Source of the DNA: Biscogniauxia marginata | Taxonomy: Eukaryota; Ascomycota; Sordariomycetes; Xylariales; Xylariaceae | Direction of reading: 5' to 3' | NCBI GenBank assembly: GCA_022695795.1 | Contig: MU404057.1 | Location: forward strand, 434,001-498,000 | Length of the DNA: 64,000 bases | Shown: piece after piece, positions 43,287 through 45,323 of the stretch | Position numbering within the stretch: position 1 is the first letter of the stretch | How the letters are laid out: each line of letters starts with the position of its first letter | The notes under the pieces: model-generated | Told to the model about the DNA's origin: nothing | What the model saw: only the letters and a program-made list of their open reading frames with translations | The model's database searches: none | Made by a program: the position numbers and the translations under genes

Positions 43287-45323
43287 TTAATCGAAATGTA
43301 TCCTCCACAGCTCCCGATCGCACCCGGCAGTGAAGCCGCTCTCCATGTGCATCGCTAGGATATTGTCACTAGCCACGACGTCCCCCCTTTCCCACGCGTG
43401 GTGATACGCGACACGGCGGTCGTGGACGAGTCCATCTAGGATTTCGCAGATGGCGAGACTGTTTAGGACGCCCCGGGTGTTCTCTATCGTCATGTTTGTC
43501 GCCTCGAACTTGGTCTTTGACTGCGGCCAGGGCTCGTGGTATCGTATACAGGGCACCTTGGTGCTCGGGTGGTCCACGACAAGCGGCAGACCTCGGAGGG
43601 CCGTCTCGTCGTGGGAGGGAGAGGGAGTGGAAGCCATCCAGGTCAACGTGCGGAGGTAGTCGAGGGAGAGGTGCTTAGGAAGGTATTTGAAGACCAACGA
43701 CGAGCTTGAGAAAATGGAAAACCTGGTCTCCTTGGGCCGAGCCATCACAGCCGCGAAGAGCTGAAATCTACTCACGAGGTTAGCTAAGCCCCTTCGCAAT
43801 CTCCGGTGGCTGTAGGAAATAATCACCTGGGCGGTCGGGATATCAATTCTTCGCTCCCGTCCTTTTCGTTGTTCGGTTCTCGCGCATCTGCACCTTGGTC
43901 TTTCATTTCCAGCGGCAGGCCCAATTTCGAAGGTAGCGGCGTTCCGAAGTCTGCCACTTTCTCGACGAAAAAATCATGGTTTCTCGTCTGTGCAAAGCCT
44001 CTTAGGATTATGGGCGAGCTCAGTTCCGACATAGCCCTTACTTTTGCGGCATCGACATCAACTATGGATAGTGCGTCGGGCCCTTCAGCTGGGCGCACCA
44101 GCCAGCCGGTTGGATATACTGGCGTGCATGTGATCCCTCCTTTCTCCTTGGCCCAAGACACTAGACTTGACCTCTCACGGTAGAAACTGGGCCTACCATC
44201 CTCGTAAACCATTTCAAGTTGCGCGTTGGTATCAAAGTCACTCCTATGCCCCGTGGTGACAGTACCGTCCAGTTGAAAAGCTATACTACAATGCCATGGC
44301 GTGGTGAAGAGGGTGGCGGTAGGTAGCAAGCTGATGGAAACCTTATTCTTGCCACGTGAAGGGTGGATCGAAAGTCTTATACGGTCGGCAAATCTCTCAC
44401 GAACAGCTCGAGCAAAAGCCTTCACAGGAGTGTCAGTGGATAATGACGTGTGACGGGTACGGGCATGAACTTACATCCCCCCTATTTAGCATCTGCTTAG
44501 CGATATACTCTATCCCTTTCTTGTATTTTGACTTGGTCCGCCCCTGGCCGACTGGGTAAACGTAGCGGAGATCAGTCTCTAAGAACTTGATGTAACCTCT
44601 GTATGTCAAGCAGGTATCTTCGTCCTCGGAAATCCTGAGCGAGGCATCAAAGCCTGGATTGCTAAATTGCTTTAGGAGACCATAGCGAAAGTTGGTGGCA
44701 TTGGCTACATATGTCATCTCGTCGAGCTCATCTGGCACATTGATGTGTGCCAAATCTTTAAGACGACAGAATTCAATATGACTGCAATTCTGTCGGGCAC
44801 TCATGCTACGAAGTGCTTCGCCATATGCCCATACGTCTCGATCTGGTACTCCTAGAAGGTCTTCGATGTATTAGTATTAATAACGCGATGAGGAAAAGGG
44901 CGAGGTGGGGCTCTAGACACCATTATAAACAAGGCCGTCTGAGACTATCATCAACCGAGCACCGGGAGGATAAATGTCTCCAATGGCAGCACAAAGCCCG
45001 TTGAGGTGAGCCAGCGCAAACTCTTCAGCTTTATCGGGAAGCCGGCCGAGGACTTTCGAGGTAGTATTTGGAGACTTGAAAGGAAACGCAGGTAGACACA
45101 TAAGAATAGGCTCATTAGCCGTGACCTTGGCGTATATTTGCGCTAGAAACTTCAAGTCTCCTTCCTTGCATTTAGCTGACGGTAGTTTCTGCCCAAGCCG
45201 ATAGCGGCCCAGAATTGTTAGGATTTGTGATGAGGTTTCGAGTTGCACTGATTCCAAGCGATCTGGCCCGGAGACCGGGAACAAGAACTCTTCAGTGAGG
45301 TTGGAATCCATTATGGACGGCAT
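43287..45323 (-). CDS. Isocyanide synthase (DIT1/PvcA family) fused to a TauD-like domain
   Basis: Four exons: 45323..44921, 44860..44475, 44419..43827, 43767..43287, giving 620 residues. Donors are GTGTCT, GTAAGT and GTGATT; the first intron has a TACTAATAC branch. The N-terminal half is the pyoverdine/dityrosine synthase family (LPAFPFKSPN, VLGRLPDKAEE, PPGARLMIVSDGLVYND, LLGVPDRDVWAYGEALR). These enzymes turn the amino group of Tyr, Trp or similar into an isocyanide using ribulose-5-phosphate. The C-terminal half is TauD/PvcB-like (PPRFQLFAAV, RYHEPWPQSKTKFEATN, GDVVASDNILAMH with His601, CDRELWRIHFD), the XanB-like fusion layout. Oddly, the HxD segment expected just before PPRFQLF is absent: NNEK runs straight into DGSEELISR. 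The oxygenase half is therefore predicted inactive, unless the alignment misleads me. Likely role: an isocyanide metabolite, possibly metal-binding. Confidence 0.9.

Follow-up and report, generated by a model that had tools for sequence, protein, structure and literature searches.

An isocyanide synthase fused to a putatively dead oxygenase in Biscogniauxia marginata and recurrent oxygenase loss among its relatives

The 64,000-nucleotide stretch of the Biscogniauxia marginata genome analysed here (the window; GenBank assembly GCA_022695795.1, contig MU404057.1, positions 434,001 to 498,000 of the forward strand) carries a gene for a fungal fusion protein that joins an isocyanide synthase (ICS) to a PvcB/TauD-type oxygenase and that has lost the block holding the iron-binding HxD motif. 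From comparison with related sequences, we regard this protein as a functional isocyanide synthase that carries a catalytically dead and relaxing oxygenase remnant and is transitional towards the monodomain ICS, and give this reading a probability of roughly 0.72. The family itself is already known, and what is new is the recurrence of the loss together with this transitional member. In Biscogniauxia, Camillea and their relatives the loss seems to be still under way: among related species, orthologues range from intact through damaged and dead to ICS-only, and older monodomain stubs exist beside them. Annotation as ICS-TauD is no guarantee of a working oxygenase. No report of HxD loss in ICS-TauD proteins was found in the literature by titles and abstract openings, a search that covered mainly journals without subscription.

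Gene structure and the missing HxD block

The 620-residue product rebuilt from the exons is letter for letter the deposited B. marginata protein P0001. The parts of the gene are as follows.

43287..45323, minus strand: ICS-TauD fusion gene, 4 exons, 620 amino acids (exon assembly, identity with P0001, Pfam)
45323 and 43289-43287, minus strand: ATG and stop codon, respectively (exon assembly)
44861..44920, minus strand: intron 1 (60 nt), joining YN to DLLGV, same in relatives
44420..44474, minus strand: intron 2 (55 nt), joining RGD to AFA, same in relatives
43768..43826, minus strand: intron 3 (59 nt), between PP and RFQ
44216..45137, minus strand: isocyanide synthase (DIT1_PvcA) domain, residues 63-331, crossed by introns 1 and 2
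43290..44146, minus strand: PvcB/TauD-type domain, residues 355-620, without the HxD block, crossed by intron 3
43867..43868, minus strand: deletion junction between N447 and E448, 21 codons fewer (net) than in P0002, the nearest intact homologue
43347..43349, minus strand: codon for the distal His601, which survives and corresponds to His250 of P.IsnB

The synthase domain matches DIT1_PvcA (PF05141) over nearly the whole profile (positions 1-270 of 273; 338.6 bits against a cut-off of 26.4, E 3.9e-101), while the Pfam TauD match (PF02668; residues 457-617, E 3.5e-14) does not begin before position 107 of the 267-position profile. With both domains in one chain, the protein is a XanB-type ICS-TauD fusion by architecture, though not as a bifunctional enzyme. 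Intron 3 has exactly the coordinates that had been proposed from the sequence beforehand, and the model of P0028 (Seiridium) contains an 18-residue insertion at the same point that looks like an unspliced copy of this intron, so the intron position is probably old. The GC content at third codon positions is 0.49 in the synthase half and 0.70 in the oxygenase half, a difference observed in B. marginata alone and given no weight as evidence.

The homologue set consisted of the best 120 of 641 and the best 120 of 903 protein matches, together 140 distinct proteins, of which 138 were aligned; the long fusions P0106 and P0129 were left out of the 140-protein alignment. HxD, the distal His and both active-site arginines are present in 119 of the 138 aligned homologues (below, the intact proteins), so their incomplete presence is exceptional in the listed set. 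In the nearest intact relative among the matches listed, P0002 of Xylariomycetidae sp. FL2044 (70% identical), 23 residues stand where B. marginata has two, which amounts to 21 codons lost net and in frame. The relatives have LEVKDRGADTRGLNNVLSAEWMPFHYDGLFKTEK....DGSEELVSTPPxFQFF here, and B. marginata has LEMKDQGADAREPNNEKDGSEELISRPPRFQLF, in which NN runs straight into EKDGSEELISRPP and the HxD block of the relatives, LNNVLSAEWMPFHYDGLFKTEK, is absent. The alignment thus bears out the original prediction that an HxD segment has been lost between conserved flanks, and the loss is slightly larger than the 15-20 residues it had estimated.

With P0002 as the query, a sequence match to P.IsnB (7TCL) places the equivalents of His101, Trp102, Asp103, Gly104, Met105, Tyr106 and Lys107 in the lost block, which in P0002 holds H461, Y462, D463, G464, L465, F466 and K467. 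The iron site of P.IsnB is His101/Asp103/His250, and PMC9467999 also assigns roles to Arg265, Gly104, pocket residues and Trp74, the last of which lies packed against the Arg that binds the substrate. The position of G464 is Gly in all 119 intact proteins (119/119), and that of Trp74 (W431 in P0002 numbering), Trp in 118 of the 119, is Ser in B. marginata. The distal His is H601, as had been predicted, and R612 and R616, equivalent to R261 and R265 of P.IsnB, are retained; the former presumably binds 2-oxoglutarate, as in TauD. The fold predicted for the oxygenase half is still a jelly-roll. Measured against PvcB and P.IsnB, the protein has the distal His and the predicted fold, and lacks the HxD ligands and the pocket and type-switch residues.

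A rescue of the motif by other means was also looked for, and here too the earlier expectation of none held. The HxD segment was sought in all three minus-strand frames of 43740-44120 without success, which rules out a hidden exon or alternative splicing that would restore it. The protein has the HxE/HxD triplets HIE162, HDE513, HME601 and HFD618, none of them in the metal column; the alignment, which places HDE513, HME601 and HFD618 off that column, rules out a substitute as far as aligned positions can tell. Among the 119 intact proteins, 95 also have the C-terminal HxD, in addition to the true one.

Distribution of the loss among relatives

The 19 aligned proteins outside the intact set comprise 13 without a complete triad or without the whole domain (the lost rows), three with a changed arginine and three truncated models. 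The lost rows belong to B. marginata, Biscogniauxia sp. FL1348, B. mediterranea and Camillea tinctor, to Hypoxylon cercidicola, H. sp. FL1150, H. sp. FL1284, H. sp. CI-4A and H. texense, and further to Jackrogersella minutella, Xylariaceae sp. FL0662B and Whalleya microplaca, with P0132 as the last. A complete triad is found in none of the four Biscogniauxia/Camillea orthologues (0/4), whose lesions are the deletion, YxN with a distal Asn, CxD and HxN. The three sister species of B. marginata carry substitutions in the block, not a deletion, and have in common a separate 10-residue gap upstream, and the losses are therefore not simply gaps in gene models; the equivalent of R612 is also gone in two of the three. 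Nine other listed orthologues, mostly from Hypoxylon, likewise have no complete triad. Among the lost rows, P0123 and P0124 are listed with the ICS half only (short models, taken as deposited), and P0121 (H. texense) has no HxD block in a model with an unspliced-looking stretch and an early stop, where the truncation may be a fault of the model. P0132 has a chimeric-looking start and groups with H. cercidicola; it was kept, and a repeat check was run excluding it.

Three Hypoxylon proteins (P0021, P0034 and P0122) have kept HxD and changed an active-site arginine, and in P0122 as many as 34 of 65 conserved oxygenase columns have changed; these could possibly be earlier stages of the same decay. 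P0102, P0125 and P0126, all from outside the Xylariales, have no C-terminal part; as these seem to be incomplete or erroneous models, they were kept out of the loss count. Eight of the 13 lost rows carry both Pfam labels (P0001, P0007, P0011, P0017, P0036, P0038, P0074 and P0098), and the PF02668 label is missing from P0118, P0121, P0123, P0124 and P0132. Since dead oxygenases can keep both labels, product predictions that are based on domains can be wrong for these fungi.

Far from the Xylariales, the ICS-TauD proteins P0243, P0251 and P0254 of the lichen genus Xylographa (Lecanoromycetes) have no HxD, and two of the three have no distal His, in what is probably an independent loss; their lichen relatives P0246, P0248, P0255, P0258 and P0260 have kept HxD.

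Number of losses

A maximum-likelihood tree was built from the ICS half alone for 50 hand-chosen rows of the 138. On this tree the four Biscogniauxia/Camillea proteins form a clade (support 100/99) with the intact FL2044 protein as sister (99/94), and the 13 lost rows imply five changes, a number that is the same (5-5) across the bootstrap trees, while a coding of intact against all other rows gives eight. A single clade of all 13 lost rows is rejected (p-AU, from the approximately unbiased test, 0.0043), and the seven Hypoxylon-group rows as one clade have a p-AU of 0.041. These results suggest that oxygenase loss is recurrent and has happened more than once among the relatives. The stem of Biscogniauxia/Camillea has nearly the intact ratio of branch lengths (TauD 0.164, ICS 0.125), and that of the three sister species differs from it (TauD 0.493 vs ICS 0.057), for which reason B. 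marginata and its sisters may have undergone separate losses.

Conservation and rates in the two halves

Near-invariant columns, defined as those conserved to at least 98% in the 119 intact proteins, number 74 in the synthase and 65 in the oxygenase. B. marginata keeps 73 of the 74 synthase columns, in agreement with the view taken in the original prediction that this half is intact, and 44 of the 65 oxygenase columns, nine of its 21 changes being the deleted block itself. The eight other lost rows of full length keep 71-74 synthase and 29-38 oxygenase columns.

For the rate tests, branch lengths were fitted on one topology, and P0121, P0123 and P0124, which have little or no TauD, were taken out. 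The ratio of TauD to ICS tip lengths has a median of 1.11 in the 34 intact rows and 5.0 in the 10 lost rows (Mann-Whitney p 2.7e-6, an optimistic value because the tips share history), and the ICS tips are not longer in the lost rows (0.075 vs 0.094 in the intact ones). As the active-site columns define the two groups, the test was repeated without them and gave medians of 1.29 and 2.79, respectively (p 5.9e-5). The B. marginata tip has a ratio of 3.2 on all columns and of 2.54 without the active site, which 2 of the 34 intact rows reach. At the protein level, then, the oxygenase half is apparently under relaxed constraint and the synthase half under full constraint, and this combination argues against a dying gene.

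Monodomain synthases and oxygenase relics

Besides the fusion gene, the assembly has a single ICS match, the monodomain gene P0141, the translation of which is a 100% match to a deposited B. marginata protein.

G000:C66:176713-177525 (L005:2465-4120), minus strand: second B. marginata ICS gene (P0141), monodomain

P0141 ends directly after AGPVIVTGFANILNSRM, which corresponds to the first strand of the oxygenase, and is followed by AT-rich DNA. Its listed relatives in other Xylariales mostly have the same ending.

Among the best 120 of 497 relatives of P0141, 111 have no oxygenase domain, and 97 of these 111 end at most 60 residues from such a strand, against 157 matches in 2220 shuffled tails; the strand pattern is permissive and was chosen after the tails had been inspected. 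Profile-profile comparison of 98 tails with the same stretch of the 119 ICS-TauD proteins gave E 3.6e-32 over 102 columns to the ends, and the last 35 tail residues alone gave E 1.4e-6, each E being that of a single comparison. Single tails match a short hidden Markov model of the oxygenase N-terminus weakly (27/111 at E<=1 vs 28/2220 of the shuffled tails; 2/111 at E<=0.01). Taken together, the tails suggest that most of the monodomain ICS relatives carry at their end what is left of the first helix and strand of the oxygenase; the P.IsnB-like domain of P0002 starts at about residue 352, and about its first 60 residues would hence be retained. In PMC10153163, repeated loss from an ICS-TauD ancestor is given as the parsimonious origin of monodomain fungal ICS, with multiple origins of the fusion left open, and the recurrent losses and relic stubs seen in our sequence comparisons support this loss hypothesis.

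Comparison with known systems and proposed product

The protein shares domain order, length and the near-invariant ICS residues with the XanB-type fungal ICS-TauD proteins (ICS-DOX; PMC5974471, PMC10153163) and differs from them by the deleted HxD/pocket block and a faster evolving oxygenase half. Each half resembles P.IsnA/P.IsnB and PvcA/PvcB (PDB 9dh4, 7tcl, 3e59, 3eat) in sequence, with P0002 as the query, and in predicted fold; these are separate bacterial proteins, however, and the His101/Asp103/His250 site of P.IsnB is intact. Monodomain fungal ICS, including P0141, are likewise synthases without a working oxygenase, but the B. marginata fusion still encodes nearly the whole oxygenase domain. 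The CrmA type, an ICS fused to domains like those of non-ribosomal peptide synthetases (NRPS-like), makes an isocyanide without TauD (PMC9381783), and its isocyano acid is the kind of product proposed here, although CrmA has the NRPS-like domains and a valine-derived product.

In the mechanism that we propose, the synthase would condense an amino acid, probably tyrosine, with ribulose-5-phosphate and release an alpha-isocyano carboxylic acid. For want of an iron site, desaturation and decarboxylation to a vinyl isonitrile presumably cannot occur in the B. marginata protein, and the isocyano acid would then either hydrate to an N-formyl amino acid or go to other enzymes. The position of Lys107, one of two marker positions and linked to vinyl isonitrile formation in PMC9467999, is Lys in 114 of the 119 intact relatives, so that an acid would here take the place of vinyl isonitrile as the product. 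The HxD loss and the conserved synthase half also favour the synthase-only activity that had been suggested at the outset. As to the product, which had been suggested to be of aldehyde or acid type, the acid fits by analogy, given that P.IsnB acts on tyrosine isonitrile, which has a free carboxylate (PMC9467999), and that CrmA, an ICS without TauD, gives 2-isocyanoisovaleric acid (PMC9381783); the aldehyde found no support in the material consulted. On a wider scale, the Xylariales, and apparently other fungi too, would have gone repeatedly through a process in which the fusion loses oxygenase activity, then the domain, and ends as a monodomain enzyme.

Alternative explanations

The alternative that survives best, which we nevertheless consider doubtful, is that selection retains the remnant as a pseudo-enzyme, its dead fold stabilising, dimerising or regulating the synthase, or still binding and channelling the product. 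The open frame and the predicted jelly-roll fold do allow for partial constraint on the oxygenase half, but the fold was predicted from an alignment of mostly intact proteins and may draw the old fold by habit. Two listed relatives (P0123 and P0124) do without the domain, TauD is accelerated in the lost rows as a group, and the R612 equivalent has been lost in two of the three sisters. The scaffold role foreseen in the original prediction fares no better, as the B. marginata oxygenase half evolves, even outside the active site, faster than most intact lineages (2.54 vs a median of 1.29). A bolder version, which we advance tentatively, holds that selection has repeatedly switched the Xylariales pathway to isocyano acid, that the dead half was kept in Biscogniauxia/Camillea as a helper or regulator pseudo-oxygenase before being lost, and that the monodomain stubs originated in this way.

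It is unlikely that the synthase half yields an N-formyl amino acid directly, which would leave no need for the oxygenase. Yeast Dit1 provides the model for this, being reported in PMC7345447 to make most likely formyl tyrosine and no isocyanide and not to be replaced by PvcA. The B. marginata synthase, however, has 73 of 74 ICS columns as in the intact relatives, whose oxygenase should, by homology to P.IsnB, take an isocyano acid. Less probable still is oxygenation in trans by another enzyme with the final product unchanged. The genome does hold 27 TauD-family matches (exon pieces, the ICS-TauD gene included), and a P450 piece lies about 8-10 kb from the gene, but an exon-wise search of the assembly with the PvcB-like half of P0002 as the query, in which few candidates were scored and a much-split gene could escape, gave no further match at E<=10 beyond the ICS-TauD gene itself, and the sole other ICS match is the monodomain P0141. 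That the whole gene is a young pseudogene is quite improbable: an active-site deletion is a usual first lesion in a metabolic gene, but the ICS half has no lesion and an unaccelerated rate, and is also unharmed in sister rows with a further-decayed oxygenase. An assembly or sequencing error behind the 63-nt gap, which is known from a single assembly, is hardly credible, as the gap preserves the reading frame, the Trp equivalent to W431 is lost too, the TauD tip is accelerated and three sister species have no complete triad through other lesions.

Several points weigh against the reading of a working synthase with a dead and relaxing oxygenase remnant. Beyond the dependence of the deletion itself on one assembly, the fully supported branches of the ICS tree alone force only two changes for the lost label and three for intact against others, and the groups for the clade tests were named after the tree was known. 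The 74 ICS columns are conserved positions, which is not the same as known catalytic residues, and the rates are protein-level values. In a neutral simulation (400 runs per level, indels ignored), the chance of no stop in the B. marginata remnant was 0.095, and the open frame also fits a recent loss under neutrality. Finally, the case of Dit1 means that membership of the family does not prove an isocyanide product.

Genomic surroundings

For the neighbourhood, 20 of the 89 open reading frames (ORFs) of at least 110 amino acids in the window were scanned with Pfam, and no convincing biosynthetic cluster was recognised among these 20. The P450 piece and a C2H2 ORF lie near the gene and could belong to a cluster, and the Pfam matches in the window also include a cutinase piece and a glycosyl hydrolase. 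Further features are listed below.

39904-41274, minus strand: C2H2-type zinc finger ORF, adjoining the fusion gene, with an overlapping frame at 41234-41533
33519-35178, minus strand: one short ORF matching the C-terminal part of a P450, more short ORFs lying upstream
22751-24223, minus strand: flavohaemoglobin-like ORF (globin, FAD and NAD domains)
14668-18349, plus strand: tyrosinase ORF and an AA9 polysaccharide monooxygenase with CBM1, close together

Read in the overlapping minus-strand frame, a repeat next to the zinc finger ORF (about 41325-41400) would translate into a long run of glutamines.
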